The notes below the pieces were generated by a model, which was not told where the DNA came from, ran no database searches, and saw only the letters and a list, made by a program, of their open reading frames with translations. From the NCBI GenBank assembly GCA_903858165.1, contig CAIOHZ010000300.1:1-62420 (forward strand): a DNA stretch of 62,420 nucleotides. Direction: 5' to 3'. The DNA comes from an uncultured Pseudomonadota bacterium (GTDB taxonomy: Bacteria > Pseudomonadota > Gammaproteobacteria > Steroidobacterales > Steroidobacteraceae). This document shows, one piece after another, positions 25,822-42,356 of this stretch (position 1 is the stretch's first letter; every line of letters begins with the position of its first letter). The position numbers and the translations under genes were made by a program.

Positions 25822-26127
25822 TTACAGGGCCTCAGTCGTGATGAAAATGGGTGAGTCTGCAAACGTCTGAAACTCCGCGGCAACCCGCTGCATGGTCGGC
25901 GTGCTGATGTCGTTCATGAGGCCCGCAGCATCGCCGAGGCGCAACACTTCGACGTACTGGTAGGGGGCGCTACCGCCACCCAGTAACCCGGTGGTGCGCA
26001 ACACCTCGAAGCCCGCAACGGAGGGCAGTGCATTCACGATGGGTAGGTCCGTGGTGCGGGCCCAGTGTTCATAGGCGGCGGCGTCGGTGCCGGCCTTCAG
26101 GTTGAACAGCACGATGATGGTGGACAT
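25822..26127 (-). CDS. Small dimeric alpha/beta-barrel protein, RedY/HapK-like
   Basis: This 101-residue protein begins MSTIIVLFNLKAG, contains AYEHWARTTDLPIVNALPSVAGFEVLR and ends FADSPIFITTEAL. The pattern resembles RedY/HapK-like members of the dimeric ferredoxin-like alpha/beta-barrel group, first noted in prodigiosin clusters. Related folds serve as small oxygenases, isomerases or carriers of hydrophobic ligands; no catalytic residue can be assigned here. It is divergent from the VOC gene, and the 177 bp between them must hold both promoters. The assignment rests on memory of the family and should be treated as moderate. Confidence 0.6.
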   Translation of the reverse strand: MSTIIVLFNLKAGTDAAAYEHWARTTDLPIVNALPSVAGFEVLRTTGLLGGGSAPYQYVEVLRLGDAAGLMNDISTPTMQRVAAEFQTFADSPIFITTEAL

Positions 26128-26304: not shown

Positions 26305-27228
26305 ATGACTGCCACGCCTGATATCGACCCGCCATCGCCCTTGTCATCGCCTTCGCCTTTGGGCCGGATTCGTGCGGTAACGTTGGGCTGCCCTTCCTTG
26401 GCAACTGCTGAAGCGGTTTATGTGGCGGCGCTCGGCTACCGCGTGGTGGAGCGAGGCGCCTTGCCGGCTGCACTGGCCGCTGCATGGCAGGCGCCTGCGG
26501 TAGCGGGTGCGCCCTATGCTGTTCTGGCTCCCCAGAGCGGAGAAGAAACTTACTTGCGATTCGTCGAGGTGCCGGGGGTGGCGCCGTTTGCTCCGTATTC
26601 CGCCTATGGCTGGAACGCGATCGAACTGACGGTCGAGGACTGTGATGCCGCTGTGGCGCGACTTGCCGCGGGCCCCTTCACGGTAGTTGGCCCGCCGGAA
26701 GATCTGGCGTTTTCGCAGGGCGCTTTGCGTGCCGGGCAATTGGTCGGGCCGCTCGGGGAAATTATCTATCTGACGCAGGTGCGTCGGCAGATGCCCGGCT
26801 TTGAGTTGCCACCGGCGCGTTCCTTCGTAGACCGTGTGTTCATCATGGTGTTGCATGGCTCTGCAGCGCAGCCTGGGCTCGACCATTACGCGGCCACTTT
26901 TGGTAACCCGGCCTCTGCTACCTTCGATGTGACGGTGCCGTTCATGGCGGTGTACCAAGGTTTGCTACCCGATCACCCCTACCGCATCGGCACCTTGGTG
27001 CTAGGCGCCGGCTTCTACCTGGAGATGGACAACAGTCCAGCCCACATTGGCCCGCGTGTGGCGCCGGCGGGCGGTTTGCCGCCCGGCATCGCCATGGTCA
27101 GCTTCGAAGTCGCCGAACCGCAGTTGGGTGGGGTGGCTGCCGAGGGCGCCATTTATGCCGGACGCACCGCGCGTCGTGTCGCGGGGGCGTTCGGTGAATG
27201 GTTGGAACTTTTGGCACCAGTGGTATGA
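26305..27228 (+). CDS. VOC (glyoxalase/extradiol dioxygenase fold) family protein
   Basis: The 307-residue protein consists of two paired VOC modules (about 20-160 and 170-300). The first starts IRAVTLGCPSLATAEAVYVAALGYRVVERG, which is the usual beta-alpha opening of glyoxalase/dioxygenase folds, with RFVEVPGV and NAIELTVEDCDAAVARL further on. Metal ligands are not obvious, so it may be a non-catalytic or isomerase-like member. The start ATG at 26305 has GCGGAG upstream. It is the first gene of a coupled operon: its stop overlaps the ATG of the FAD/Fe-S reductase. Confidence 0.75.
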   Translation: MTATPDIDPPSPLSSPSPLGRIRAVTLGCPSLATAEAVYVAALGYRVVERGALPAALAAAWQAPAVAGAPYAVLAPQSGEETYLRFVEVPGVAPFAPYSAYGWNAIELTVEDCDAAVARLAAGPFTVVGPPEDLAFSQGALRAGQLVGPLGEIIYLTQVRRQMPGFELPPARSFVDRVFIMVLHGSAAQPGLDHYAATFGNPASATFDVTVPFMAVYQGLLPDHPYRIGTLVLGAGFYLEMDNSPAHIGPRVAPAGGLPPGIAMVSFEVAEPQLGGVAAEGAIYAGRTARRVAGAFGEWLELLAPVV

Positions 27229-29222
27229 GCGATACCCCGGTGAGCGAGAACAAGTACCCGCTGTTGTTCTCGCCGTTGGTCAGTGGTCGACTGCGGCTAC
27301 GCAACCGAATCTTGCATGCCTCGATGACCACCCGTCGCGTGGTGGACCAGCGCGTGACGCCCGGCATGGTGCAGTACTACGCCAATCGGGCCCGTGGTGG
27401 TGCGGCGCTGGTAGTGAGTGAGCCACTCAACATGTCCCGCTTGCAGCAGGCGGCACACAAAGTTCGTGTCTGGAACGACGATAATCTCGAAGGCTTGCAG
27501 CGCTGGGCCGCAGCGGTAGAGGGTGAGGACTGCCGTTTACTTGGGCAAGTGCAGGACTCCGGGCGAGGTCGGCACGAGCGTGGACGTAACCCCGCTGCCA
27601 TTGGCGTGTCGTCGCTGCCAGATGACCTTTCTTGGACTGTGCCGCATGTGCTGCGTGCCGATGAGTTGCAGGGCATGGTGGATGACTTCGCGCAGTCCGC
27701 AGCGCGCCTTGAGCGTTGCGGATTCTCGGGCGTTGAAATTTCGGCCGGTCATGGTCACTTGTTCCATCAGTTCCTCTCGCCATGGAGCAACCTCCGCGAA
27801 GACGCTTATGGCGGCGATTTCAACGGCCGCCTGCGTTTTCTCAATGACACCGTTAAGGCGATCCGTGCCAACTGCGGTGCTGGTTTCGTCATTGCACTGA
27901 AGCTGCCGGGCGATGACGGACTGCCGGGTGGTGTGGGCCCGGAATTGGCTGCCCAGATTGCCGGCGCCATGACCCGCGACAGCGCGGTGGACTACGTGAG
28001 TTTCTGTCAGGGAACCCATGCCAGAACCTTGGACTGGCATATCCCGGACATGCATTGGCCGCGTTCCACTTGGATGGATCTGATTGCGCAATTGCGCCCA
28101 GCAGTGAATGGGAAGCCGTTGGCTGCACTGGGGCTGATAACCGACCCGGCCGAAGCCGAAGGCCATCTGGCGCGGGGCACGGTGGAATTGGTGGCGCTCG
28201 GACGCGCATTGGTGACGGATCCGGCCTGGCCACTGAAGGCTGCTGCGGGACGTGAGGCGGAGATTCGCTATTGCGTGTCCTGCAACACCTGCTGGGGCAC
28301 CATCGTCGAAGGCTCGCCATTGGCTTGCGACAACAACCCCCGCGTGGCGATGCCCGAAGAAGTGGACTGGAAGCCGGCGCGTGTCGCCCGCGCCCGTCGT
28401 ATCACTATCGTCGGTGCTGGTATTGCTGGCCTCGAGGCGGCTTGGGTGGCGGCAGCACGTGGTCATGCGGTGACGGTGTTTGGCGCTGGCAACGAGGTAG
28501 GTGGCAGCGCGCGCTTGCATGCGGCCTTGCCCGGGGGCGAATCGCTCTCTTCGGTTTACGACTACCAGTATCTGGCGGCGAAACGTGCCGGGGTGCGCTT
28601 CGAGTTGGGGGTTAAGGCTGGCCTTGAAGACGTGCTAGCCACACGGCCGGATGCGGTCGTCTTGGCTACCGGCTCCACCATGCTGTGGCCGCGTTCGCTG
28701 CCCGCCGATTGGCAAGCGGACGGGGCTATCCCGGATTTGCGGGCCCTCTGCGGCGATCTGCTCGGGGTGACCCAGCCGCAAGGCGGTCGCGCCGTGTTGT
28801 TCGATATGGACCATACGGAAGGGACATACTCCGCTGCCGTGCTGCTGCAGCGCTTGTTCGATGAAGTGGTGTTGGTGACACCGCGTGAAAGGTTTGCGGT
28901 GGACGTTCCGTTGGTCTCTTCACTAGGTATTTACCGACGCTTGTCGAAGTTGGGCGTGCAACTGGTGCCGTTGCATGAACTGGCGCCCGAGTCGGCGCTG
29001 GACGAGGGCCGGGTGAGCCTGCGTCACTTCCACACTGGCGCGCTGCAAACCATGGACGACGTGGCAGTGGTGACGTTTGCAACGCCGCGAAAGCCCACGG
29101 ATGCGCTGGCAGCGCCGTTGCGTGCCGCGGGCTTGGAACTGCATTTGGCTGGGGATTGCCACCAGCCACGGCCCTTGTTGCTGGCTACGGCAGACGGGCA
29201 CCGTATCGGTAATCTGCTTTGA
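27225..29222 (+). CDS. FMN/FAD/[4Fe-4S] oxidoreductase of the old yellow enzyme / 2,4-dienoyl-CoA reductase family
   Basis: This 665-residue protein has an N-terminal OYE-type TIM barrel (about 10-340). The Fe-S binding segment follows with Cys350, Cys353, Cys356 and Cys368. The C-terminal half is a pyridine-nucleotide/FAD domain beginning IVGAGIAGLEAAW (about 395). This order is shared by FadH, trimethylamine dehydrogenase, and the bile-acid and isoflavone reductases, which reduce or oxidise activated C=C bonds. The segment EISAGHGHLFHQFLSPWSN aligns with the FadH catalytic region, but the catalytic Tyr (GYL) is replaced by His178. His265 in QGTHART may match the FadH His. It is coupled to the VOC gene by ATGA. 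Confidence 0.85.
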   Translation: MSDTPVSENKYPLLFSPLVSGRLRLRNRILHASMTTRRVVDQRVTPGMVQYYANRARGGAALVVSEPLNMSRLQQAAHKVRVWNDDNLEGLQRWAAAVEGEDCRLLGQVQDSGRGRHERGRNPAAIGVSSLPDDLSWTVPHVLRADELQGMVDDFAQSAARLERCGFSGVEISAGHGHLFHQFLSPWSNLREDAYGGDFNGRLRFLNDTVKAIRANCGAGFVIALKLPGDDGLPGGVGPELAAQIAGAMTRDSAVDYVSFCQGTHARTLDWHIPDMHWPRSTWMDLIAQLRPAVNGKPLAALGLITDPAEAEGHLARGTVELVALGRALVTDPAWPLKAAAGREAEIRYCVSCNTCWGTIVEGSPLACDNNPRVAMPEEVDWKPARVARARRITIVGAGIAGLEAAWVAAARGHAVTVFGAGNEVGGSARLHAALPGGESLSSVYDYQYLAAKRAGVRFELGVKAGLEDVLATRPDAVVLATGSTMLWPRSLPADWQADGAIPDLRALCGDLLGVTQPQGGRAVLFDMDHTEGTYSAAVLLQRLFDEVVLVTPRERFAVDVPLVSSLGIYRRLSKLGVQLVPLHELAPESALDEGRVSLRHFHTGALQTMDDVAVVTFATPRKPTDALAAPLRAAGLELHLAGDCHQPRPLLLATADGHRIGNLL

Positions 29223-29238
29223 GTGTCCGATGAAGAAT

Positions 29239-29261
29239 GTCCTAGGGGACTATTTTTTTTT
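29239..29261 (+). terminator. Possible weak terminator with a T9 run
   Basis: A short GTCC-TAGG-GGAC hairpin is followed by TA and nine consecutive T residues, 17 bp after the reductase stop. The stem is only 4 bp, so this is at best a partial terminator that could lower expression of the methyltransferase and later genes. Confidence 0.35.
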
Positions 29262-29327
29262 CACGGTCGGCTGCGCTAGCATCCGCTTGTCCGGGTACGT
29301 GCCGGGTTGCCAATTGGAGGAAGTACC

Positions 29328-30521
29328 ATGGTTGTTGAACTGAAACACGCTATGAAGCCCGAGTTGGGTGCCGAAGACGCTGCACGGCAGCGTTTCGTCA
29401 GTGGCTTGCGCGGTTTTGTGCTCAGCGACCTGGCTGGGGACCTGCGCCGGGTCTATGACGAACGGGTCGCCCCGCGCTTCGAAAGCACTCACGGACGCGC
29501 GCCCGCGGATGGCGATGAAGTGCACCAAGCCATGCGCGTAGACCCTACCTTCAAGGCCTACAGCAGTTTGCGTGTTACCGCGCAAAAAATGGTCTGGGAC
29601 TCAGTCGCCCCTGTAGTGGAAAGACATCGTGGTCTGCTGGAAGCCGCCGCCGTAGCCGGTGATGCGAAAGTGAAACTGGACCCTGCCGTACAGGTGCCGC
29701 GTAGCGTTTCCGCTGTCGACGTGCATCTGATGCCGGGTTCTTACAGCGGCAAGGGCGCGCCTGAAGACATGGCCCCGGGCGCGGTCTACGACCAAGGCTT
29801 TGCAGTTTTTTCCATGGGCCTGATGGGGGATGAATTCAACGACATTGGCCGTTCCATGGCGCGGTACATCAGTCGCAAGTTCCCCGATTTCAAGCCACAG
29901 CGCATCTTGGATCTGGGCTGCACCATCGGTCATAACACCTTGCCCTGGAAAGAGGCTTACCCCGACGCCGAGGTCGTCGGCGCGGATGTGGTGGCCGGAT
30001 GCCTGCGCTATGGCTCAGCGCGTGCCGTCTCGCGCGGGGTAGATGTCGAGTTTCGCCAGATGAACGCCGAGAGCATCGATCTTCCGGACGCCTCGGTGGA
30101 CGTGGTATTCACTTCCATGTTCTTGCATGAACTGTCATTGAAGAGCATTGGCCGGGTGTTCGCAGAGATTCGCCGCGTGCTGCGTCCGGGCGGTCTCATG
30201 TTGCACATGGAACTGCCGCCGAATACGCAGATGGGGGCCTTCGAAGGCTTCTATCTCGATTGGGACTGCTATTACAACGCCGAACCGTTCTATAAGGCCT
30301 TTCGCGACCAAGAGCCGCGCGACCTGTGCCGCAAGGCCGGGTTCCGCGACGACCACTACCTGCAGTTCGTGGTGCCTAGTGTGTGGAACCATGGCGAAGC
30401 CGCGGTGGAAACCGCCATCGCCGCGGAAGGCCATGAAGTGAACAAGGCCACGACCGGGCGTCTGTCACATGGTGGCATCGAATGGTTCGGCTTTGGCGCC
30501 TGGCGCGAGGCACAGTCGTGA
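29328..30521 (+). CDS. Class I SAM-dependent methyltransferase with N-terminal helical domain
   Basis: This 397-residue protein has a C-terminal Rossmann methyltransferase domain (about 165-390). Motif I is RILDLGCTIGHNTLPW, motif II ends in VVGADV, and VDVVFTSMFLHEL with RRVLRPGGLMLHMEL resembles the UbiE/COQ5 type. The first 160 residues form an extra, mainly helical region of unknown role. A clear GGAGG (29316-29320) precedes the ATG by 7 bp. Its stop overlaps the GTG of the small downstream gene. Context suggests a small-molecule substrate in the same pathway as the OYE-type reductase; the substrate is unknown. Confidence 0.85.
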   Translation: MVVELKHAMKPELGAEDAARQRFVSGLRGFVLSDLAGDLRRVYDERVAPRFESTHGRAPADGDEVHQAMRVDPTFKAYSSLRVTAQKMVWDSVAPVVERHRGLLEAAAVAGDAKVKLDPAVQVPRSVSAVDVHLMPGSYSGKGAPEDMAPGAVYDQGFAVFSMGLMGDEFNDIGRSMARYISRKFPDFKPQRILDLGCTIGHNTLPWKEAYPDAEVVGADVVAGCLRYGSARAVSRGVDVEFRQMNAESIDLPDASVDVVFTSMFLHELSLKSIGRVFAEIRRVLRPGGLMLHMELPPNTQMGAFEGFYLDWDCYYNAEPFYKAFRDQEPRDLCRKAGFRDDHYLQFVVPSVWNHGEAAVETAIAAEGHEVNKATTGRLSHGGIEWFGFGAWREAQS

Positions 30522-30835
30522 GTGCTGCTGAGTTGGGTAGCTCCGGCATTCCCGCCGATGCACCGCGTGGATACTACGGGCCGGACGGTCAGCCGCAGTT
30601 CTTTGTCGACCCGGCCATGGACCGCTTCTCGGCGGTACTGGTAAAGCTGGTTCAGGAAGTTTGGGTGCTCACCGAGCGGGTTGATGCCATCGAGCGCGTG
30701 GCCGCTGCCAAGGGCAGTGTCACCGCCGCCGAAGTGGCAGCTTTGCTGGCGGACCCGGCCGTTAGTGCTGCACGTGAAGCAGCACTGGCCCAGTTCATCG
30801 GCCGCACGCTCGGTCCACTGCGCGAACCCGCATGA
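30518..30835 (+). CDS. Small protein of unknown function coupled to the methyltransferase
   Basis: I do not recognise this 105-residue protein with confidence. It starts with GTG overlapping the methyltransferase stop (GTGA) and ends in an ATGA overlap with the MFS gene, so it is embedded in a translationally coupled operon. The N-terminal part has GYYGPDGQPQFFVDPAMDR. A long amphipathic helix follows (about 38-66, VLVKLVQEVWVLTERVDAIERV), likely to form a coiled coil. A second Ala-rich helical region closes the protein. There is no signal peptide and no cysteine. It may be a dimerising partner of the methyltransferase or reductase; that is inference. Confidence 0.7.
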   Translation: MSAAELGSSGIPADAPRGYYGPDGQPQFFVDPAMDRFSAVLVKLVQEVWVLTERVDAIERVAAAKGSVTAAEVAALLADPAVSAAREAALAQFIGRTLGPLREPA

Positions 30836-32064
30836 AGGCGCGCGGTGGTGCGCTTGGCAGCACGGGAGTGCTGCTGGTCATGTTGCTGGTCTGGGCTGCT
30901 TCCAACCTCGACCAGTCGCTGTTCAGCTATGCCATTCCCGGCATCGTCGGTGAGTTCGGCGCCAGTCTGAACGCCATCGGCGGTTTGCTGTCGCTGTCGT
31001 TCGCAGTCGCGGCGGTGTTCGCGGTGTTCGCGGGGATGGCAGCGGACCGCTTTGGACGGCGGTGGACGCTGGTGGTGTTGCTCGCCAGTTCGGCGTTGTT
31101 TGTCGGCCTGCATGGCTATGTGCAAGACATGGGCCAACTCACCCTTGCGCGCACTTTGGCCTTCGGGTTGGCGGCAGGCATTGCGCCCATCACGGCGGCG
31201 TATGTGGCCGAAGCCGCGCCGGCACGGCATCGCGGCATGCTCATGGGTATTTTGCAGTGTGGCTATCCGCTGGGTTGGGCCCTAGGGGGCTTGCTCGCCG
31301 GGCAACTATTGGCGACCGGCGGCTGGCGTAACGTCTTCTTGATCGGCTTCTTGATGGTGCCGGTGGCTTTGTTGATGGGGCGCTTTTTGCCAGAGAGTGT
31401 TCGCTTTGCGGAACTCGCTGCGCGCACCGATGCGGCGGCCGTGGCGCCCGTGCGCCTCGGCGAGTTGTTCGCTCCAGCGCTTCGTCGCCGCTCGTTGGCG
31501 TGCATCGTTTTGTTCTTCACTTTCGGTGGCGCTTACGCGGGAACTGCCTTCTTCTTCGCTACATTCTTTACAGAAGTGCGCGGCTACAGCCCGGCCGAAG
31601 CGGCCACGCTGGTGGGGCTGGGCAACGGCTTCGCCGTGGCGGGTTATCTGGTAGCGGCGGCGGTAGGTGAATATGTCTGGACGCGGCGCAACACCTACGC
31701 GCTGTGGTGTCTGCTCGGGGCGTTTGCCCTGTTGGCGCTGGTGTGGCTCCCGGTGGAACGCTGGCAGGACTTGGCCTTGTTCGCTCTCACGGGCAGCTTT
31801 TTCTATGGCAGCAATGCTGTGGTGGGTGCTTTGCTGGCGGACCTCTATCCCACGCGGGTACGCGCCACGGCCTACGCCGCTTGCGGCTCGGCACCGTTGA
31901 GTCTGGGCTTCGCGGTTTATCCGGCGGTGGTGCCACTGGTGGTGGGTTTGGCTGGCTGGAAGGTGGCTATGTCCTTGGCCATTGCACCGTTGCTGGTGGC
32001 GTCGGCATTGGCCGCGCTCTGGTTGCCTAACCTGCAGTCCGGCGCTGAAGTCGCCGACGTTTGA
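30832..32064 (+). CDS. MFS transporter (sugar/aromatic acid carrier-like)
   Basis: This 410-residue inner-membrane protein has 12 hydrophobic segments and the MFS loop signature AADRFGRRWTLVV after helix 2. RTLAFGLAAGIAPITAAYVAEAAPARHRGMLMGI in helices 4-5 is typical of the metabolite:H+ and aromatic acid carriers. The second half has ADLYPTRVRATAYAACGSAP. It is coupled to the preceding small gene and followed 11 bp later by the SDR gene, suggesting uptake or efflux of the pathway substrate. Substrate identity cannot be derived. Confidence 0.85.
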   Translation: MKARGGALGSTGVLLVMLLVWAASNLDQSLFSYAIPGIVGEFGASLNAIGGLLSLSFAVAAVFAVFAGMAADRFGRRWTLVVLLASSALFVGLHGYVQDMGQLTLARTLAFGLAAGIAPITAAYVAEAAPARHRGMLMGILQCGYPLGWALGGLLAGQLLATGGWRNVFLIGFLMVPVALLMGRFLPESVRFAELAARTDAAAVAPVRLGELFAPALRRRSLACIVLFFTFGGAYAGTAFFFATFFTEVRGYSPAEAATLVGLGNGFAVAGYLVAAAVGEYVWTRRNTYALWCLLGAFALLALVWLPVERWQDLALFALTGSFFYGSNAVVGALLADLYPTRVRATAYAACGSAPLSLGFAVYPAVVPLVVGLAGWKVAMSLAIAPLLVASALAALWLPNLQSGAEVADV

Positions 32065-32075
32065 GGAAAACGCTC

Positions 32076-32906
32076 ATGGGAATGCTTGAAGGTAAGGTAG
32101 CGCTGGTCACCGGTGCAGGACGTCATGGCGGGCTCGGTCAAGCCATTTGCGCACGCTTGGCGGTGGAAGGCTGCCGCGTGGCGCTGACCGACATTGGCGA
32201 GCCGCAACCCTTGATGGGCGTCGGCCATATTGGCAGTAGCGCCGAAATGGAACAGGTAGCGGCGGGGCTGCGGGAGATTGGCCCCGAGATTCTGGCGCTG
32301 CCGATGGATGTCCGCGACGAGGCGCAGGTGGAGGCCGCGATTGCTGCCGTGGTTGCGCGCTTCGGTCGACTCGACATCCTCGTCAACAATGCCGGTATTG
32401 GTTACCTCTTCAGTCCCATCATGGAGATGCCCGTCGACTTCTGGAAGGCCGTCATGGACGTGAACGTGCTTGGGCCATTTCTCTGCACCAAGCATGCCGC
32501 GCGGCAGATGGTTGCGCAGGGCGGTGGTGGGCGCATCATCAATATCGCCAGCCAGGCCGCGAAGTCGGGGCACCCGCACCTTGCCGCTTATATCGCTTCG
32601 AAGCACGGCTTGGTCGGGCTTACGCGTACGGCGGCGTTGGAATTGGGCAAGCACGGCATCACGGTGAACGCCGTTTGCCCGAACCACGTGACCACGGGAC
32701 TCGGCGCCGTGCAGAACGAGTACTACGCCAAGCAAGCCGGCATCACGGTGGAGGAGTATCTGGCCAACATGCGCCGCGGCATTCCGCTGGGGCGCGTGGG
32801 TTTGCCGGAGGACACTGCCAAGGCTTGTGTCTTCCTGTGCTCCGCCGCGGCGGACTACATCACTGGCGAAGCCATGAACGTGAGTGGCGGCGCCGAGATG
32901 CACTGA
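32076..32906 (+). CDS. Short-chain dehydrogenase/reductase
   Basis: This 276-residue NAD(P)-dependent SDR oxidises or reduces an alcohol/ketone pair. The cofactor motif is TGAGRHGGLGQAI, one residue longer than the classical TGxxxGxG. LDILVNNAG and the catalytic Ser/Tyr/Lys set in IASQAAKSGHPHLAAYIASK are intact. VNAVCPNHVTTGL and ITGEAMNVSGG end the fold as usual. TGAGGA directly after the MFS stop serves as ribosome site. It is the last gene of the VOC-OYE-methyltransferase operon; a GCCTG-CATA-CAGGC hairpin lies about 86 bp after its stop. Confidence 0.92.
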   Translation: MGMLEGKVALVTGAGRHGGLGQAICARLAVEGCRVALTDIGEPQPLMGVGHIGSSAEMEQVAAGLREIGPEILALPMDVRDEAQVEAAIAAVVARFGRLDILVNNAGIGYLFSPIMEMPVDFWKAVMDVNVLGPFLCTKHAARQMVAQGGGGRIINIASQAAKSGHPHLAAYIASKHGLVGLTRTAALELGKHGITVNAVCPNHVTTGLGAVQNEYYAKQAGITVEEYLANMRRGIPLGRVGLPEDTAKACVFLCSAAADYITGEAMNVSGGAEMH

Positions 32907-33158: not shown

Positions 33159-35372
33159 ATGAATCGCGTTTCGTCCCGTACCAGCCTGATGCTGGTTTCT
33201 GCCGTCGGTCTGGTCCTGCAGTCCGCTGCAGCCATGGCCCAAACTCCTGCGGCCGATGCCGGCCTTGAGGAAGTCACCGTAACCGCCCAGCGCGTGTCCG
33301 CCAAGTTGCAGGACGTGCCACTGTCGGTAACGGCGCTCTCCGCTTCGGAACTACAGGACCGTCAGGTGACCAATGGCCTCGACATGGTGCGGCAGGTGCC
33401 GAACCTCATCGGCAGCAATAACGTTGGCCTCGGTTCAGCGGCCTCGTTCTTCCTCCGCGGCGTCGGTCAGGACGAATCCATCGCCACGTCGGACCCGGCC
33501 GTCGGTGTTTACGTCGATGGCGTCTACATTTCCCGCCAAATCGCCAACAACGTGCTGCTGTACGACCTGGAGCGCGTGGAAGTGCTGCGCGGCCCGCAGG
33601 GCACGCTGTATGGCCGTAACACCTCCGGTGGCGCCATCAAGTTCGTCACGCGGAAGCCTGGCAAGGAATTTACTGGTTACGCCGATGTTTCCTACGAGAG
33701 CGAATACCAGCGCGCGATGATTACTGCCAGCGTGGATATGCCGCTGTCGGATACCTTGTCCTCGAAGCTCACGGCCGTTCATTCGGACCAGCAGAAGGGT
33801 TTCCAGAAGAGCCGCACTACGGGTGACGAGTTCTGGTCGCCGCAGGCGGATGGCGTGCGTGCGCAGTTGCGCTGGATGCCGAACGATGCCACGGACATTA
33901 CCGGCACCGTTGAATACCTGAAGGACTCCGGTCAGGAAATCGTCGGTCAGGATCGTCTGAACGACAACCCGGGCACGTTCTTCTCGGTGCTGAGCGGCCT
34001 GCGTGGCCAGATGCAGGAAACGAAGACGCGTGCGGCGTCCATCAACGCCACCATCGACTTCGGCAGCTTCCAGCTCGAGTCGATCAGCGGCGTGCGTAGC
34101 CTGCAGCAGACGTTCCTCATCGACGCTTCGGACCAAGCCCGTGCGGCTTACGCCATTCCGAACGCCAGCACCCACAATCAGTGGAGCCAGGAGTTCACCT
34201 TCAGCGGCAAGGCCGGTGCGGTGGATTGGTTGGCCGGTGTGTTCTACATGAACGAGCGCAACCGCTCGTTCGTGGGTGACGAACTGTTCCTGTTTGGCGG
34301 CATCGTCGCCGGCAACTTCATGCGGGACCTGAACAACAACGCCAAGAGCAGTGCTGCCTTCGCGCATGCCACTTGGCACGCCAGCGATGCGCTTAGCTTT
34401 ACCGCAGGTGGCCGTTACACGCAGGAGAAAAAGACTGTCGATGTGCAGCAGTACATCGTGTTCCCGGTTGCCGTCCCCGGCACTATCGCGAACTATGCGC
34501 CTTCCTCCTATCCGGGCGCCAAAGGCCCATTGCTGCCGTTCTGGAACACCACGCAGGTGGTAGCGAATGGTACGGAAGTGGCGCCGAAGTTCACGAAGTT
34601 CGACCCGAAGGTTGGCGTGGACTATAAGCTGAGCGACGACGCCATGGTGTTCGCCAGTTTCACCAAGGGTTTCAAGAGCGGTGGCTGGAATGCCCGCGTT
34701 ACGGACCCGCGTGACTTCGTGCTGTACCGTCCCGAGTCGGTCACGTCCATCGAAGTGGGCTTGAAGAGCACTTGGCTCGACAACAAACTGCGTTTGAACT
34801 TGACCTACTTCGACGCACGCTACAAGGACTTCATCGTCTCGGCCATCAATCCGGCCACCAACAGCTTCATCACCGTCAATGCGGCGAAGATGCACAACCG
34901 TGGTGTGGAAGGTGAACTGGCTTGGCACCCGCAGGAGGCGGTGACGTTCTTCGCGAACTTTGGCACCAACGATGCGAAGTACACGCAGTCGACCACCGCT
35001 GCTATTTCGCTCAGCAACAAGGTGAAGCGCACGCCGAAATCCACCTATTCGTTGGGCGCCGAGCTGCGTGAGTCTGCTGGCAGTGGCGAAGTGTTCGCCA
35101 ACCTCTGGTACTCGCACCAGGGTAAGTATTACGCGGACCTAGCGAATTCGCCTTACGCCTTGGTGCCTGATTACCCAGTGCTGGACGCTAGCGCCGGTTG
35201 GGAATCGGCGACCAAGGACTGGCGTCTGGCGGTCAGTTGCAAGAACTGCGCGAACAAGGAGAACTTCCACTCTGCGCTCGTGTTCGCCACCTTGGGCTTC
35301 GCTACTCAGTACCCGTCGCTGCCGCGTCAGGTGTTCCTGAATGCGCGTTACAGCTTCGGCGCGAAGCGCTGA
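33159..35372 (+). CDS. TonB-dependent outer-membrane receptor
   Basis: This 737-residue receptor imports a bulky or scarce compound across the outer membrane using TonB energy. A signal peptide (residues 1 to about 28, ending AMAQ) is followed by a TonB-box-like LEEVTVTAQR. The plug domain has VPLSVTALSASELQDRQV and RVEVLRGPQGTLYGRNTSGGAIKFVTRKP. The rest is a 22-strand barrel ending FLNARYSFGAKR. No STN domain is present. A CxxC (SCKNCANKE) sits in the penultimate strand region, where KNLT-like sequence is more usual. The gene stands alone with its own promoter region and is followed by a strong terminator. Neighbouring carriers and oxidoreductases suggest an organic, non-siderophore substrate. 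Confidence 0.92.
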   Translation: MNRVSSRTSLMLVSAVGLVLQSAAAMAQTPAADAGLEEVTVTAQRVSAKLQDVPLSVTALSASELQDRQVTNGLDMVRQVPNLIGSNNVGLGSAASFFLRGVGQDESIATSDPAVGVYVDGVYISRQIANNVLLYDLERVEVLRGPQGTLYGRNTSGGAIKFVTRKPGKEFTGYADVSYESEYQRAMITASVDMPLSDTLSSKLTAVHSDQQKGFQKSRTTGDEFWSPQADGVRAQLRWMPNDATDITGTVEYLKDSGQEIVGQDRLNDNPGTFFSVLSGLRGQMQETKTRAASINATIDFGSFQLESISGVRSLQQTFLIDASDQARAAYAIPNASTHNQWSQEFTFSGKAGAVDWLAGVFYMNERNRSFVGDELFLFGGIVAGNFMRDLNNNAKSSAAFAHATWHASDALSFTAGGRYTQEKKTVDVQQYIVFPVAVPGTIANYAPSSYPGAKGPLLPFWNTTQVVANGTEVAPKFTKFDPKVGVDYKLSDDAMVFASFTKGFKSGGWNARVTDPRDFVLYRPESVTSIEVGLKSTWLDNKLRLNLTYFDARYKDFIVSAINPATNSFITVNAAKMHNRGVEGELAWHPQEAVTFFANFGTNDAKYTQSTTAAISLSNKVKRTPKSTYSLGAELRESAGSGEVFANLWYSHQGKYYADLANSPYALVPDYPVLDASAGWESATKDWRLAVSCKNCANKENFHSALVFATLGFATQYPSLPRQVFLNARYSFGAKR

Positions 35373-35456: not shown

Positions 35457-36039
35457 ATGCCGCCGCCGAATTCGGACCGATGCTGGCGGGAGTTGCAGTG
35501 CCTGCCGTCAGTTCGACGCCGGCAGCCAACAGCAAATGCAGCAGGGCAATGGCCGGCAGACCTGCCACCACCGGCTGGGTGGCTTGTACGACGCCGGTGG
35601 CAATGAGCAGCAATGTGCCGAGCGCGAAGGCTGGTTGACGGCGCTGCCAAGCCGCGGTGACGAGCAAGGACACAGCAAAGAGCAGGCACAGCAAGCTCCA
35701 TAGCTTGAAGCCGAGCAACCCCACGATGATGACGCCGCCTGCCCCGCCGAACAGCAAGGCCAGACAGGCAGCACGTGGCTGCTGCGACGGCAAGCTGCCG
35801 GGCCACCGCAGGCACCAGGCCAACAGCGGTATACCGGCATTGGTGGCGACCAGCACCATAAACTGATGAGGACCAACCGCCCACGGTGCGCCACCGAAAC
35901 GCGCTACTCCAAACAGGGCGGCGAGGCCAACGGCGGCCAAAGCCGCGGCTAGCCCCGGCGATTGCTTGGCCTTGCGCCAGATGAGCGCCGCACAGACGGC
36001 TGCCAGTACGAGGTCCGTCGCACCTTCTGGGGTCATCAT
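35455..36039 (-). CDS. Unknown polytopic membrane protein coupled to the sterol-desaturase-like gene
   Basis: I do not recognise this 194-residue protein. It has about six or seven hydrophobic segments, among them ATDLVLAAVCAALIW, VMVLVAT-like FMVLVATNAGIPLLAWCL, ACLALLFGGAGGVIIVGLLG and LWSLLCLLFAVSLLV, with short polar loops. Conserved-looking polar positions are HQF and NAG in the middle. Its ATG-ATG start overlaps the TGA of the desaturase-like gene, so the two proteins are made together and may act on the same membrane lipid. An upstream in-frame extension into the desaturase gene was rejected. Confidence 0.7.
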   Translation of the reverse strand: MMTPEGATDLVLAAVCAALIWRKAKQSPGLAAALAAVGLAALFGVARFGGAPWAVGPHQFMVLVATNAGIPLLAWCLRWPGSLPSQQPRAACLALLFGGAGGVIIVGLLGFKLWSLLCLLFAVSLLVTAAWQRRQPAFALGTLLLIATGVVQATQPVVAGLPAIALLHLLLAAGVELTAGTATPASIGPNSAAA

Positions 36040-37148
36040 GGTTTCTCTCCATTGGCGGTAGGGCTGGGCGTGCTCTTGGCAGGGGAGCCTGCCGCGGAGG
36101 GCCGCCAACGCCCTTCGAGTTGGGCGCCGATGGCGACACTGCCCAGCAGGATGAACCCGCCAGCGAGCAGTCGGCCAGTCCAGCTCAGACTTTCGGCCAT
36201 CAGAATGTAGTAGACGGTGGCGGCCATGAGTACCCCCGCCTGCAGCAAAATCATCGGCCGAACCCGGCGCGGTACTTCCGGCTGATAGCGTTGGAAGCCG
36301 GTGAAGTCCTCATGGGGAACGGGTTCGTTCCAGCCTTGCGGTGGGCCGAACCACACGGCCAGCGCCGCGCGCCAGCTCGGTGCAGCACGGCTGGCTTGGA
36401 ACAGTTCGCGGTATTGGATGAAGTTGCCCCACACCGGGTTCAGGCTGCGAAACCGCTTGCGGACGCCGTAGACCACGGGTTCCTCGGCGCGCTCTTCAGC
36501 GAAGGTGCCGAAGAGGCGGTCCCACACCACCAAGATGCCACCGTAGTTGCGGTCGATGCAGTAGTCGTTTTGGCCGTGATGTACGCGATGGTTCGAGGGG
36601 GTAACGAATACCCGGTCTAGCCAGCCGAGGCGGCCCACTTGCTCGGTATGAACCCACACTTGGTAGAGCAGATCGATGAGAGCCACGGTGGCAAATACCA
36701 TCGGGGGCACGCCGATCACCGCGAGACCGAGGTAGAACGGCCACTTCAACAGGGAGCCGGTCGCGGTCTGTCGCAGGGCGGTGGAAAGATTGAAGTATTC
36801 GGAGGAGTGATGCACTTGGTGCGAGGCCCACACGAGGTTCACCTGGTGGCCAAAGCGATGTACCCAGTAATAGCAGAAGTCGTAGGCCAGTAAGGCACCC
36901 ACCCATACCCGCCAGTCCGTCGCGGACAGTTCGAAGGCGTGGTAACGCTGGTAAACCGCCGCGTAGATGGCCGCGACCACCAGACGGGCCAGCGTACGCT
37001 CCACCTCACTGAGGTAACCGAAGTGGATACTCGTGAGTGCGTCGGGCAGCGCGTAGCTACGCGAGCCTCGCCAGTGCGCATAGAGCGCTTCTACGGCGAT
37101 GGCAAACAGAAACACCGGAAAGGCCAAGGCGATAGGGCTGACGTGCAT
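36036..37148 (-). CDS. Sterol desaturase / fatty acid hydroxylase family protein, AGMO-like
   Basis: This 370-residue membrane protein carries the three histidine clusters of the di-iron hydroxylase superfamily: HRFGH (97-101), HQVHH (110-114) and HRVHH (187-191). The later segment NYGGILVVWDRLFGTFAEE is typical of the branch containing alkylglycerol monooxygenase and related bacterial proteins. Such enzymes hydroxylate C-H bonds in lipids, ether lipids or sterols with O2. The C-terminal third has two more membrane segments and a basic tail. It is coupled to the unknown membrane protein downstream and divergent from the GH109-like gene. Confidence 0.87.
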   Translation of the reverse strand: MHVSPIALAFPVFLFAIAVEALYAHWRGSRSYALPDALTSIHFGYLSEVERTLARLVVAAIYAAVYQRYHAFELSATDWRVWVGALLAYDFCYYWVHRFGHQVNLVWASHQVHHSSEYFNLSTALRQTATGSLLKWPFYLGLAVIGVPPMVFATVALIDLLYQVWVHTEQVGRLGWLDRVFVTPSNHRVHHGQNDYCIDRNYGGILVVWDRLFGTFAEERAEEPVVYGVRKRFRSLNPVWGNFIQYRELFQASRAAPSWRAALAVWFGPPQGWNEPVPHEDFTGFQRYQPEVPRRVRPMILLQAGVLMAATVYYILMAESLSWTGRLLAGGFILLGSVAIGAQLEGRWRPSAAGSPAKSTPSPTANGEKP

Positions 37149-37274
37149 CCGGAATTTCCCCGAAAATGGTTGCTACGAAGTGTGCCTGTTAAACCGCGGG
37201 CTGGGAACCACCATCGGAGCCACTCGGCACGCCTGTGGCACGCCTTTGGCAAGCCACTGTGGGCCACCGATGCG

Positions 37275-37290
37275 GTATCGTGCTCGATAC
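37275..37290. promoter_or_regulatory. Dyad GTATCG-N4-CGATAC upstream of the GH109-like gene
   Basis: A perfect 6-bp inverted repeat with 4-bp spacer lies 46 bp before the GH109-like ATG, in the 188-bp divergent region with the desaturase-like gene. Its size suits a dimeric repressor, but the binding protein is unknown. Confidence 0.4.
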
Positions 37291-37336
37291 AAGTATTCGA
37301 CCGGTAGCCCGGCGTTGTCGGGGGGAGGGGGCGGGG

Positions 37337-38683
37337 ATGGGTATCGAGCGCAGGGACTTTCTCAAGGTGGCGGCTGCCGGCGCGGCTGCGGCAACTTTGC
37401 CGTGGACTGCGGCCGCCAGTGGGCGTGACCGCGTCCGGTTGGGTTTCATCGGCACGGGCTTGCGGGGGCAGGAGCACCTCGACCTGGCGCTACGCCGTGC
37501 GGATGTCGACGTGGTGGCGCTTTGCGACATTGATGCGGAGATGTTGGGCGCGGCACTGAAGCAGGTGGCGGACGCCGGGAAACCCGCTCCGCAGACGTAC
37601 ACGGGCGATGTTCACGCCTACCGGAAACTGCTGGAAGACCGCACGCTTGATGCCGTAATTATTGCTACCCCTTGGGAATGGCATGCGCCGATGGTGCTGG
37701 ACTCCTTGGCCGCTGGCATTCGCTATGTAGGTACTGAAGTGGTGCTGGGGCTCACGCTCGAAGACCATTGGAAGGTGGTGCGCGCCGTTGAACATCATGG
37801 TGCGCAAGTCATGATGCTGGAAAATGTTTGCTACCGCCGCGATGTGCTGGCGGTGCTGAACATGGTTCGGCAAGGCGTGTTCGGTGAACTCATGCACCTG
37901 CAGGGTGGCTACCAACACGACTTGCGTGGCGTGAAGTTCAACGACGGCAAGACGCCCTATGACAGTGGCGTTGAGTTTGGTGCGAAGGGCTATTCCGAGG
38001 CCCGTTGGCGGACACAGCATTCCGTGAACCGCAATGGCGACCTCTACCCGACGCATGGGGTGGGTCCTCTGGCGATGATGGTGGATATCAATCGGGGAAA
38101 CCGCTTCACCAAACTGTCGAGTTTTGCGAGTAAGGCTCGCGGCTTGCACGATTATGTCGTGGCCAAAGGTGGCGCAGATCACCCAAATGCGCAGGTGCGC
38201 TTTGCGTTAGGCGATGTGGTGACGACTCAGATCGCTTGTGCCAATGGCGAAACAGTACTGCTGCAACACGACACCTCGCTGCCGCGGCCGTATTCCTTGG
38301 GTTTTCGCGTGCAAGGGACGAAGGGCCTGTGGATGGACGTGAATCATTCCATCCACATTGAAGGTTCCAGCGAGCACCATCAGTGGGAGGCGGCTCAAGC
38401 GTGGCTGGATAAATACGACCATCCGCTATGGAGGCGCTATGGCGGCGACGCGCAAGGTGCGGGGCATGGCGGTATGGACTTCTTCGTGTTGCATGCTTTT
38501 GTGGAAAGTGTGAAGCGGCAGTTGCCTACACCGCAGGATGTCTACGATGCTGCGACTTGGAGTGCCATCACGCCGCTCAGTGAGGCTTCCGTGCGGCAGG
38601 AGCGCGTCGTGGAGTTCCCGGATTTCACGGGTGGGCGTTGGAAGTCGCGCCGGAACGAGTTCGCCTTGGGAGATGACTACTGA
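37337..38683 (+). CDS. Tat-exported Gfo/Idh/MocA oxidoreductase of the GH109 type
   Basis: The 448-residue precursor opens with a clean Tat signal (MGIERRDFLKVAAAG, twin Arg at 5-6). The NAD-binding motif LGFIGTGLRGQEH follows, then a Gfo/Idh/MocA fold. Several segments are those of glycoside hydrolase family 109 (NAD-dependent alpha-N-acetylgalactosaminidase): MMLENVCYRRDVL, MVRQGVFGELMHLQGGYQHDLRGVKF, RNGDLYPTHGVGPLA, LLQHDTSLPRPYSLGFRVQGTKG and QDVYDAATWSAITPLSE. The enzyme would act in the periplasm with a tightly bound NAD. It is coupled by TGATG to a quinone oxidoreductase, so a role in redox conversion of another glycoside or cyclitol is possible. Confidence 0.88.
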   Translation: MGIERRDFLKVAAAGAAAATLPWTAAASGRDRVRLGFIGTGLRGQEHLDLALRRADVDVVALCDIDAEMLGAALKQVADAGKPAPQTYTGDVHAYRKLLEDRTLDAVIIATPWEWHAPMVLDSLAAGIRYVGTEVVLGLTLEDHWKVVRAVEHHGAQVMMLENVCYRRDVLAVLNMVRQGVFGELMHLQGGYQHDLRGVKFNDGKTPYDSGVEFGAKGYSEARWRTQHSVNRNGDLYPTHGVGPLAMMVDINRGNRFTKLSSFASKARGLHDYVVAKGGADHPNAQVRFALGDVVTTQIACANGETVLLQHDTSLPRPYSLGFRVQGTKGLWMDVNHSIHIEGSSEHHQWEAAQAWLDKYDHPLWRRYGGDAQGAGHGGMDFFVLHAFVESVKRQLPTPQDVYDAATWSAITPLSEASVRQERVVEFPDFTGGRWKSRRNEFALGDDY

Positions 38684-39702
38684 TGAGCGGTTTACCTGCA
38701 TCGATGCGGTATGTAGCAGCACGGGGTGCTGGTGGTCCTGAAGTGCTGGAGCTCGACACCATGGCGCTGCCTGTGCCACGCGCAGACGAGGTGCTTGTTC
38801 AGGTACAGGCTGCCGGGGTGAACCGCCCTGACGTGGCGCAGCGGCAGGGGAAGTACCCGCCGCCGCCAGGAGCAAGCCCGGTCATTGGCTTGGAAGTGGC
38901 GGGCGTGGTGGTGGCTGTGGGCAGTGCTGTGCAGCGCTGGCGCTGCGGCGACAGCGTGACCGCGCTGACCAATGGCGGCGGCTATGCGGAATACTGTGCT
39001 GCGCCAGAAACCCAATGCCTGCCATGGCCTACGGGTTTCACCGCGGTGCAGGCCGCCTCGCTTCCCGAGACCTATTTCACCGTGTGGGCCAACCTCATGT
39101 TTCACGGGCGTTTCCAGCCCGGCGATAGCGTGTTGATCCATGGCGGCACCAGCGGTATCGGTGTTACCGCTATCCAGTTAGTGACGGCGCTCGGTGGCAA
39201 GGCTTACGCCACTGCCGGCTCCGCCGAGAAATGCGCTGCCTGCGTTTCGCTGGGTGCAGCGGCTGCTATTGATTATCGACAAGAGGATTTCGCGAAGCGA
39301 TTGGCGGAATTGACCGATGGATGCGGCGTGGACATCGTCCTCGACATCGTCGGCGCACCGTATTTCGAGCAAAACTTGGCGAGCCTTGCCATGGATGGCC
39401 GCTTGGTGCAGGTGTCTACCATGCAGGGGGCCGTGGCCACCAAGCTAGACTTGTTTCAAGTGATGCGGCGTCGGTTGGTCATTACCGGCTCGACCATGCG
39501 TCCGCGCACGACGGCAGAGAAAGGGGCAATAGCTGCGGCGCTGGAGGCCAAGGCTTGGCCTTTGCTCTCCTCCGGTATCATCCGGCCGGTCATTCATTCG
39601 GTCTTTCCGTTGGCTTCTGCCAGCGAGGCGCATCGCTTGATGGAAGCCAGTACGCACATCGGCAAAATTGTGCTCGATGGTATCTCTGAGGAAATACGCT
39701 GA
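38683..39702 (+). CDS. NAD(P)H:quinone oxidoreductase, PIG3-type zinc-independent MDR
   Basis: This 339-residue medium-chain dehydrogenase/reductase lacks the structural zinc cysteines. It shows AAGVNRPDVAQRQGKYPPPPGASPVIGLEVAG in the catalytic domain and VLIHGGTSGIGVTAIQL for NADPH binding, both typical of the PIG3/quinone oxidoreductase branch. The C-terminus with TGSTMRPRTTAEKGAIA and HSVFPLASASEAHRLMEAS also fits. Its ATG overlaps the GH109-like stop (TGATG), and its own stop overlaps the next gene in the same way, so three genes form one coupled operon. Confidence 0.9.
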   Translation: MSGLPASMRYVAARGAGGPEVLELDTMALPVPRADEVLVQVQAAGVNRPDVAQRQGKYPPPPGASPVIGLEVAGVVVAVGSAVQRWRCGDSVTALTNGGGYAEYCAAPETQCLPWPTGFTAVQAASLPETYFTVWANLMFHGRFQPGDSVLIHGGTSGIGVTAIQLVTALGGKAYATAGSAEKCAACVSLGAAAAIDYRQEDFAKRLAELTDGCGVDIVLDIVGAPYFEQNLASLAMDGRLVQVSTMQGAVATKLDLFQVMRRRLVITGSTMRPRTTAEKGAIAAALEAKAWPLLSSGIIRPVIHSVFPLASASEAHRLMEASTHIGKIVLDGISEEIR

Positions 39703-40952
39703 TGCTCGCCGAAAAGAAACTGACGGCGCCTGCCGTGTCCCCGCGCTATCTCGTGTTCCTGCTGGCGCTCGCTTTGCTCATCAGTTACGTGGACCGCGGC
39801 AATCTGGCCACGGCGGCGCCGCTCATCAAAAGCGAACTCGGCTTGGATGAAGCGCAATACGGCCTACTGGCTTCGGCTTTTTACTGGACCTATGTCGCGT
39901 TTATGGTGCCGGTGGGTTGGGCCACCGAACGCTTCGGGGCGCACCGAGTGCTCGCCATCGGTGTGTTCCTTTGGTCGGTCGCTACTTTGCTGACGGGCTT
40001 TGCCGGCAGCATCTTGGCCTTGTTGTTACTGCGCTTGCTCTTGGGTGCGGGCGAAAGCGCCGTCTTTCCGACCAGCTCCAGCCTCATTTCCACGTATGTC
40101 CCAGAACAGCAGCGCGGTACAGCCAATGGCGCCATCAGTTTTGGCTACCTCGTGGGCCCGGCCATCGGCACGTTTATCGGGGGCTTGCTCATGGCGCAAT
40201 GGGGATGGCGGCCGGTCTTCATCCTCTTCGGCGCGTTATCGCTGGTGTGGTTGTTGCCATGGTTCCGTTTCTCGCGGCAACTGAAGGTCGCGGCGGTAAC
40301 CAAGCTAGCCAGTGCCGCACCGGGTTTCCGTGAACTGCTGGCGCAACGTGGTTTGTGGGGTACCTCGCTCGGTCACTTTGCCGGCAACTACAACTGGTAC
40401 TTCATCCTCTCGTTCATGCCGCTGTACCTCGTGGATGTGCGCGAGTTTTCCATGGAGGGCATGGCTTGGGTGCTCAGTAGCGCCTACGTGGTGAATGCGG
40501 TCTGCGCCATGGCTTCGGGCTGGTTCACGGACCGTTGGGTTCGCAGTGGGCGTTCTGCCTCCACCATCTACAAAGGCTCCATGGTGCTGAGCCATGCCGT
40601 ATCCATTGGCGCCATGGCGGGCATGATGGTATTGCCGGTCAAGGGGGCCATTGCCTGTCTGTTTCTCTACGAAATCTTCCTTGGTTTTTGCTCGCCCGCC
40701 ACGTTTGCCATTGGTCAGACCATGGCGGGCCCCCACGCCACGGGCCGGTGGATTGGCGTGCAGAACTTCTGCGGCAACGTTGCGGGCATTCTGGCCCCAG
40801 CCATCACCGGACTGCTGGTCGCGGCCACCGGTAACTACACGCTGGCTTTTTTGTTGGCCTGTGCTGTCAACGTGTTGGGTATTCTGGGTTGGGGAATCAT
40901 CCTACCGAAGGTCCAGTTGGTGCAGTGGGGAGAACCTTCCCGGGGTTCATGA
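39702..40952 (+). CDS. MFS transporter, anion:cation symporter (ACS) type
   Basis: This 416-residue inner-membrane protein has 12 predicted helices. RYLVFLLALALLISYVDRGNLATAAPLIKSELGLDEAQYGLL at the N-terminus and GWATERFGAHRVLAIGVFLWSVATLLTGF after helix 2 are characteristic of ACS-family carriers of organic anions such as hexuronates, tartrate or phthalate. LGAGESAVFPTSSSLISTY in helix 4 and WGWRPVFILFG agree. Coupling to the quinone oxidoreductase and GH109-like genes suggests import of an acidic product. Its last 56 bp overlap the convergent FAD-linked oxidase gene. Confidence 0.88.
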   Translation: MLAEKKLTAPAVSPRYLVFLLALALLISYVDRGNLATAAPLIKSELGLDEAQYGLLASAFYWTYVAFMVPVGWATERFGAHRVLAIGVFLWSVATLLTGFAGSILALLLLRLLLGAGESAVFPTSSSLISTYVPEQQRGTANGAISFGYLVGPAIGTFIGGLLMAQWGWRPVFILFGALSLVWLLPWFRFSRQLKVAAVTKLASAAPGFRELLAQRGLWGTSLGHFAGNYNWYFILSFMPLYLVDVREFSMEGMAWVLSSAYVVNAVCAMASGWFTDRWVRSGRSASTIYKGSMVLSHAVSIGAMAGMMVLPVKGAIACLFLYEIFLGFCSPATFAIGQTMAGPHATGRWIGVQNFCGNVAGILAPAITGLLVAATGNYTLAFLLACAVNVLGILGWGIILPKVQLVQWGEPSRGS

Positions 40953-42327: not shown

Positions 42328-42356
42328 TGTGGGATACTTCGCGTAAGGAGTGAAGC

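Follow-up and report, generated by a model that had tools for sequence, protein, structure and literature searches.

A methyltransferase-fold protein and its conserved small helical partner in catabolic-looking gene clusters of bacteria

The described systems closest to the pair of proteins considered here are the class-I S-adenosylmethionine (SAM)-dependent methyltransferases, such as MfnG, DnrK, RdmB and Coq5, and the small proteins of the Trm112 type, which stabilise or activate partner methyltransferases. The pair is encoded in a stretch of 62,420 nucleotides (the window; contig CAIOHZ010000300.1) from an uncultured freshwater bacterium of the Steroidobacteraceae, where an operon of six genes includes one for a protein with a class-I SAM methyltransferase fold (MT), directly followed by one for a small helical protein of 105 residues (S105). 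MT has the core fold of the class-I enzymes, together with their acidic residues in motif I and after strand 2, but in most MT copies motif I is without its middle glycine, a D-x-H-x-x-P-G-x-Y loop is conserved, and there is a dedicated small partner gene in neighbourhoods that look catabolic. S105 resembles the Trm112 proteins in being a small partner of a methyltransferase, and 6f5z is in the list of fold matches of MT; it differs in that it is predicted to be all-helical, gives no match to a Trm112-type Pfam model and, in place of one shared activator, each MT paralogue appears to have an S105 copy of its own. By sequence, MT is a member of a known superfamily, and for S105 the libraries searched gave no family. 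Our best reading is that the two form a two-subunit SAM-dependent enzyme used in a range of catabolic pathways, a cyclic amide probably being opened in some of them.

The surroundings of the pair also have described counterparts. Isochorismatase-type amidases, which recur near MT and S105, are part of the nic-type nicotinate and creatinine pathways, and the creatinine pathway also shares hydantoinase A/B with these neighbourhoods and includes N-carbamoylsarcosine amidohydrolase. To our knowledge, neither type of pathway contains an MT-S105 pair, HapK or an old yellow enzyme (OYE)-type reductase. Our searches of the open-access PMC literature found no characterised pathway with the gene set of the window, and nor did they find the pairing of MT with S105.

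That S105 is a conserved partner of MT is seen from its position and its distribution among genomes. An MT profile (A1, 17 rows) and an S105 profile (A2, 13 rows) were run on 110 sequences, namely the window, 100 stretches picked non-randomly from match lists and nine earlier loci. MT matches were counted above 140 bits, four below this value being dropped; the resulting 127 include one gene in two pieces (L171, both scored as S105-positive), two matches that lie at the ends of their sequences, and the plasmids L018 and L019, which are nearly identical. S105 lies within 600 bp downstream of MT, on the same strand, in 97 of the 127 (one of them, at L107, on a weak S105 match of 23 bits), and within 60 bp in 90 of these; for a further 12 it is found elsewhere within 1.5 kb, either upstream, shared or divergent (on the other strand at L088, and shared with the preceding MT at L112). 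Amongst 196 genomes of the order, 59 are MT-positive (E 1e-50 or better) and 66 are S105-positive (E 1e-5 or better), and S105 is carried by 58 of the 59 MT-positive genomes and by 8 of the 137 MT-negative ones (Fisher p 1e-39, uncorrected for kinship). The first-pass annotation of the window, made from its sequence, had proposed co-occurrence of the two families across genomes as a check, and the outcome is strongly positive.

The pairing appears to extend to individual copies. In a sample of 73 pairs that passed stricter limits, the distances between MT proteins and those between their S105 partners correlate with a Spearman coefficient of 0.52; random partners gave 0.09 at most in 500 trials, and swapping paralogues within genomes (28 pairs in 11 genomes) gave a mean of 0.37 and a maximum of 0.48 in 500. 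Because the real correlation exceeds that of the best swap, MT paralogues tend, as far as sequence distances can indicate, to keep their own S105. The S105 protein of the window has no match in Pfam, NCBIfam or the PDB sequences, in agreement with the first-pass annotation, which had assigned it to no family; 13 S105 members compared with Pfam gave six matches, each from a single member, at E 0.013 to 0.095. S105 has undergone expansion in some genomes of about 3 to 4 Mb from the same order, with 19 copies in each of two drafts (G630 and G669) and 17 in one of a single contig (G686). At L092 (7558-9544, genome G699), a single MT gene stands between two different S105 genes.

Several features of the MT sequence bear on what the pair might do. 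In 121 MT copies, H133, H267, E268, E319, G201, G289 and G338 are conserved at 1.00, and H7, D195, D220 and N317 at 0.98-0.99; G288-G289 is kept. D195 (0.98) and D220 (0.99) provide the motif-I acid and the post-strand-2 acid of class-I SAM methyltransferases. Motif I of the window protein reads G-C-T-I-G in place of G-x-G-x-G, although some genuine SAM enzymes also lack the middle glycine. The conserved His/Glu set might act as the general base in methyl transfer, or else lie at the centre of a reaction that is not a methylation.

When MT was folded alone with 11 sequences, the model had a pLDDT of 81.6 and a pTM of 0.84, and nearly all residues of the segment 129-148, which contains the D-x-H-x-x-P-G-x-Y loop, fell under 50. 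At L163, MT and S105 are naturally in frame; this pair, translated across the one TGA in it and folded as one chain with 110 rows in total, gave a pLDDT of 90.9 and a pTM of 0.90; the sole region under 50 is the junction (residues 403-418), the S105 part lies at 77-98 in blocks of ten, and the loop region reaches approximately 95. (In alignment A4, four of the 50 S105-only rows have 16-23% of their residues beyond the S105 part.) The joined model fits a docking of S105 on MT. Fold searches covered model residues 1-400, so that they are silent on the fold of S105, and they found an ordinary methyltransferase core, with best Z scores of 16.7 (206 residues) and 16.6 (235 residues); the matches include MfnG, DnrK, RdmB, Coq5, TamK, SpnF and 6f5z, amongst many true methyltransferases. 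No PDB chain corresponded to the joined model over its whole length, the highest TM score by query length being 0.32 among the matches listed.

The genes of the locus, with their neighbours on either side, are as follows.

25822-26127, minus strand: HapK/RedY-like protein, 101 residues (PF11639, 46.8 bits against a cut-off of 25), divergent from the operon
26305-27228, plus strand: two-module VOC-like protein, 307 residues (Pfam glyoxalase models, below cut-off)
27225-29222, plus strand: OYE-type FMN/Fe-S/FAD reductase, 665 residues (PF00724, 163.5 bits against a cut-off of 27; nucleotide-binding domain PF13450)
29328-30521, plus strand: MT, class-I SAM methyltransferase fold with a helical N-terminal domain, 397 residues (PF13649, Methyltransf_25, 74.3 bits against a cut-off of 27; fold model and PDB matches)
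30518-30835, plus strand: S105, small predicted helical protein of no named family, 105 residues (pairing with MT, joined model)
30832-32064, plus strand: MFS carrier, 410 residues (PF07690, 143.6 bits)
32076-32906, plus strand: SDR oxidoreductase, 276 residues (PF13561, 201.3 bits)
33159-35372, plus strand: TonB-dependent receptor (TBDR), 737 residues (PF00593, 142.9 bits; PF07715, 74 bits)

The six genes in the order VOC-OYE-MT-S105-MFS-SDR (26305-32906) lie on one strand, and four of their five junctions are tight, as the first-pass annotation had described: the OYE gene starts inside the end of the VOC gene (27225 against 27228, a 4-bp overlap), the MT/S105 and S105/MFS junctions are also 4-bp overlaps, MFS and SDR are 11 bp apart, and the OYE/MT junction, with a gap of 105 bp, is the sole loose one. 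The families that it had given for OYE, MT, MFS and SDR all score above their Pfam cut-offs, and the receptor and the RedY/HapK-like gene that it had seen nearby are borne out by PF00593/PF07715 and PF11639. Its two-module VOC protein is recognised by glyoxalase models, although with scores under their cut-offs, and the MAPEG gene that it had listed was not recovered, there being no MAPEG match in the five open reading frames tested between 35384 and 36210. A further gene set stands at 36036-43988 (fatty-acid-hydroxylase-type, GH109-like with a Tat signal, zinc dehydrogenase, second MFS, FAD-linked oxidase and a thiamine pyrophosphate enzyme), in which the GH109-like, zinc dehydrogenase and MFS genes are joined by 1-bp junctions; at L008, too, the block is followed by related hydroxylase, dehydrogenase and MFS genes.

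The first-pass annotation had staked its view of a coupled operon on conservation of the block in relatives, and this view survived. The order HapK|VOC-OYE-MT-S105-MFS-SDR-TBDR is repeated in full in four other genomes, and since the same eight genes stand in the same order there, the arrangement is not due to chance. Identity to the window is 74-85% at L008 and 91-98% at L104; at L102 and L103, from another genus, it is 52-80% for the block and just 31-32% for the receptor. At L009, the genes from HapK through S105 are present up to the sequence end. Two further sequences (L007 and L011) carry the block at 91-98% identity under the titles Janthinobacterium lividum and Candidatus Planktophila lacus, which look wrong.

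Five loci from a second family (L117, L134, L142, L176 and L178) have SDR-HapK divergent from MT-S105-OYE as their core, with 46-63% identity for SDR, HapK, MT and OYE; S105 is detected by BLAST in three of the five (29-34%) and by its profile in all five. A wider core consists of HapK, SDR, MT, S105 and OYE. Co-occurrence of the small protein with the reductase, which the first-pass annotation had also raised, holds for the core of these two families and fails at most MT loci, an OYE cluster being called in 14 of the 110. Other arrangements are isochorismatase-MT-S105-MFS at L010 (titled as a Caulobacteraceae metagenome-assembled genome, MAG), HapK (a partial match)-VOC-MT-S105 at L012 (titled as an Acetobacteraceae MAG), and SDR-HapK divergent from MT-S105 on the Sphingomonadaceae plasmids pJE1 and pTomTYG65b; pJE1 has, beyond MT-S105, FAD oxidoreductases, a dehydrogenase and hydantoinase-family genes. 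A link with the breakdown of alpha-tomatine, considered by way of Sphingobium sp. TomTYG65, was rejected, the paper concerned, which names this strain twice, mentioning neither a methyltransferase nor HapK.

Amongst the other proteins of the block, HapK matches the PDB sequence 2jdj (E 5e-8). It occurs in 38 of the 196 genomes, in a single copy each, and 37 of the 38 are MT-positive; 22 MT-positive genomes are without it. In 17 of the 38 it lies within 10 kb of MT, as measured to the MT places that were compared. Away from MT, HapK stands beside an OYE at L227 and L231 and, at L232, with RipB, an acyl-CoA dehydrogenase, two CoA-transferases and a DUF3108-like gene. A HapK gene is reported to be 1.9-fold up on a lignin model dimer (PMC4609964).

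The VOC protein scores 16.4 bits against a cut-off of 20.6 with one glyoxalase model and 16.6 against 27 with another, and ten aligned homologues show no conserved histidine at the usual ligand place, so that it is probably without the usual metal site. The window OYE has the same layout of OYE, Fe-S and nucleotide-binding parts as BaiCD, the long form of bilirubin reductase and mycofactocin OYE 2, but has its own cysteine spacing and a motif of its own: C-x2-C-x2-C-x11-C and E-[IL]-S-[ASV]-G-H-G-H are present in 13 of 13 aligned sequences (the window with L008, L009, L102-L104, L117, L134, L142, L176, L178, L227 and L231). The motifs of FadH/BaiCD-type enzymes, including their usual cysteine spacing, are different, and the window-type OYE may form a subfamily of its own. 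Its scores stay below the cut-offs of the models for BaiCD (NF041087, 248.1 against 825 bits), long-form bilirubin reductase (NF045599, 219.8 against 750 bits) and mycofactocin OYE 2 (TIGR03997, 419.4 against 793.15 bits). The same is true of the best SDR model, that of the mycofactocin-coupled SDR (TIGR03971, 221.3 against 300 bits), and of MFS against the aromatic-acid symporter (TIGR00895, 115.4 against 418.55). Naming a pathway from the window genes was accordingly given up, the specific models for OYE, SDR, MFS and MT all scoring below cut-off.

The neighbourhoods of MT in other organisms give more indication of a substrate class. Gene clusters were called among the 110 loci from longest open reading frames; at least three clusters (C13, C36 and c44) are apparent antisense shadows and were ignored, and some real genes, such as the isochorismatase at L092, were missed. 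No single neighbour set is universal at MT loci, because each cluster was called in just 14-28 of the 110 (OYE as given above, VOC 17, isochorismatase 18, PuuE-like 19, receptor 24 and SDR 28). In several families, MT-S105 adjoins isochorismatase-type amidases, hydantoinase- or PuuE-like cyclic amidases, CoA-transferase III, and RipB/RipC- or HMGL-type enzymes. The best PDB sequence matches of these isochorismatases are N-carbamoylsarcosine amidohydrolases, 4l07 and 3ot4, the last two of which we take to be maleamate amidases. In family f140, perhaps Burkholderiaceae-like, MT is present in 16 of 147 genomes, and the make-up of its loci varies, with combinations of isochorismatase, PuuE-like genes (often paired), RipB, RipC and CoA-transferase III, as well as aconitase/LeuD-type subunits, MmgE/PrpD, DUF1838 and a DUF3108-like gene (weak, E 0.011). 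At L159 (10279-13074) and similar f140 loci, isochorismatase and two PuuE-like genes adjoin DUF3108-like-MT-S105, an arrangement that looks like an imide-opening module. Taken together, the relatives point to cyclic amides or imides in several lineages.

In the family of the window, an isochorismatase query from L010 covered the 33 genomes that were listed in the MT search. At 55% identity or more, the gene is present in 12 of the 13 MT-positive genomes and in 4 of the 20 MT-negative ones (Fisher p 6e-5), with one further MT-negative genome having it at 36%. Contig C92 of the window's own genome (G000) carries an isochorismatase, CoA-transferase III, hydantoinase A and B, a second isochorismatase, a receptor and an SDR; the cluster of the sister genome G017 adds an HMGL-type lyase, a tetratricopeptide repeat (TPR) pair and an ExbD-type gene, and that of G728 also ExbB. 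Genus g394 (L092 and L141) has VOC, MT and S105 embedded in a CoA-transferase/isochorismatase/hydantoinase cluster with TPR/ExbB/TonB genes, and at L103 the window-type block adjoins HMGL, CoA-transferase and isochorismatase genes; these cases are the strongest, if indirect, link between the operon and the breakdown of cyclic amides. PuuE-like imidases were considered for the pathway of the window organism and rejected: they stand on small contigs of G000 only (L212, on C28 of 3.4 kb, and L213, on C290 of 5.2 kb; one is 75% identical to the f140 query) and are absent in its two sister genomes at the cut-off used, so that contamination, or recent transfer, may account for them. PuuE-like matches occur in just 4 of the 33 genomes, which makes it unlikely that imidases are general in the family.

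From these observations a scheme can be suggested. The TonB receptor and the MFS carrier would import an organic compound, the redox state of which would be changed by OYE and SDR, with the VOC and HapK proteins also taking part in its conversion. MT and S105 would be a two-subunit enzyme that methylates an intermediate with SAM as one catabolic step, the helical S105 most likely packing against MT and helping to order its substrate side. The C92 cluster probably runs the later steps, in which enzymes of the hydantoinase/amidase type would open a cyclic amide or imide, and the resulting carboxylate would enter CoA metabolism, to be finished by CoA transfer and lyase steps. The operon, the conserved pairing, the co-occurrence and a confident joined model come directly from the computations; the order of the steps, the physical complex of MT and S105, the use of SAM and the methyl transfer, the catabolic direction and the connection of the operon with C92 are as we infer them. 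Uptake and reductive conversion, proposed by the first-pass annotation, fit the receptor, carrier, OYE and SDR; as to its substrate class, relatives in several lineages suggest cyclic amides or imides instead.

A number of points weigh against the scheme. Methylation is an unusual step in catabolism, and the middle glycine of motif I is missing in 97 of the 116 copies parsed (being mostly T, A or S). The gain in order in the joined model may stem from its deeper alignment (110 against 11 sequences). No S105 lies within 1.5 kb of 18 of the 127 MT matches (two of the 18 are at sequence ends), eight genomes carry S105 without MT at the cut-off used, and the P values for co-occurrence are uncorrected for relatedness. 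The amide cluster of the window's genome is on another contig than the operon; G816, a genome of the same family outside the 33, is MT-negative and has an isochorismatase; and across the order this gene (E 1e-40) is found in 55 of 59 MT-positive genomes but also in 43 of 137 MT-negative ones. Because the scheme names methyl transfer while so many copies are without the glycine, our confidence in it is kept at about an even level.

The same loss, with H133, H267, E268 and E319 conserved throughout and with RdmB, TamK and SpnF (which we take to be non-methylating SAM-fold enzymes) amongst the fold matches, could mean that the MT fold no longer methylates. SAM or S-adenosylhomocysteine would then have only a structural or electrostatic role, and the His/Glu set would carry out a different step (hydrolysis, decarboxylation, hydration or a pericyclic reaction). 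We regard this as somewhat unlikely, since D195, D220 and G288-G289 are kept, 19 of the 116 copies retain the middle glycine, and many true methyltransferases are matched as well. It is distinctly doubtful that S105, instead of being a subunit, is a small protein in its own right (a regulator, chaperone or carrier), kept with MT for reasons of regulation: the MT genes with no S105 nearby, the 12 with S105 upstream, shared or divergent and the two S105 genes around one MT at L092 would be accommodated by such an arrangement, but it has to be set against the pair-specific co-variation, the pairing across several families and the pTM of 0.90 for the joined model.

The direction and substrate of the pathway can also be read differently. 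In the proposal of the first-pass annotation, the locus may serve to take up and reductively convert a compound of plant or steroid type, which would be one without nitrogen (a terpenoid, steroid or flavonoid); the best OYE models, although below cut-off, include BaiCD (steroid) and mycofactocin OYE 2, and downstream there are genes for fatty-acid-hydroxylase-type and GH109-like proteins. It is an unlikely account in view of the amidases and cyclic amidases that neighbour the pair in several lineages, and of the lack of a steroid- or terpenoid-specific enzyme in the operon by the models searched. Alternatively, the locus might make a compound, by synthesis or tailoring of a specialised metabolite, with the receptor and carrier serving a signal or siderophore. 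Class-I methyltransferases of the DnrK/MfnG type are biosynthetic, as are most of the fold matches, and HapK/RedY are known from prodiginine clusters. The recurrent neighbours of the pair are nevertheless amidases, CoA-transferases, an acyl-CoA dehydrogenase, RipB/RipC and HMGL-type lyases. The scan for gene families, which covered part of the neighbours, revealed neither a synthase nor an assembly-line gene, and we consider biosynthesis highly improbable.

A more specific proposal, which we consider very unlikely as it stands, is that MT-S105 is an undescribed class of two-subunit SAM-fold enzymes, at least part of which acts in the degradation of compounds derived from pyrrole (bilins, chlorophyll catabolites, heme or prodiginines). 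TonB receptors would import the compound, and OYE, SDR, HapK and MT-S105 would prepare it. The lactams or methyl-substituted maleimides so formed would be opened by cyclic amidases of the PuuE-like or hydantoinase type and by maleamate-type amidases, and RipB/RipC- or HMGL-type enzymes would finish the methyl-branched acids. The oxidation of bilins and chlorophyll classically yields methyl-substituted maleimides, which enzymes of the f140 gene set could process; that the majority of genomes in the window's family have no PuuE-like genes counts against this proposal. If true, it would supply genes for what microbes do with chlorophyll and bilins, which is so far little understood.

To return to the reading of MT-S105 as a two-subunit enzyme of catabolic pathways, its consequences extend beyond the window. 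Present annotation enters the pair as two unrelated items, a ‘class I SAM-dependent methyltransferase’ and a ‘hypothetical protein’, as on pJE1, and the pairing offers a way into many unassigned, catabolic-looking clusters in aquatic bacteria and on sphingomonad plasmids. A methyltransferase fold with its own small partner, with up to 19 S105 copies per genome and kept together with genes for uptake and carboxylate breakdown in several families, would amount to an enzyme class.

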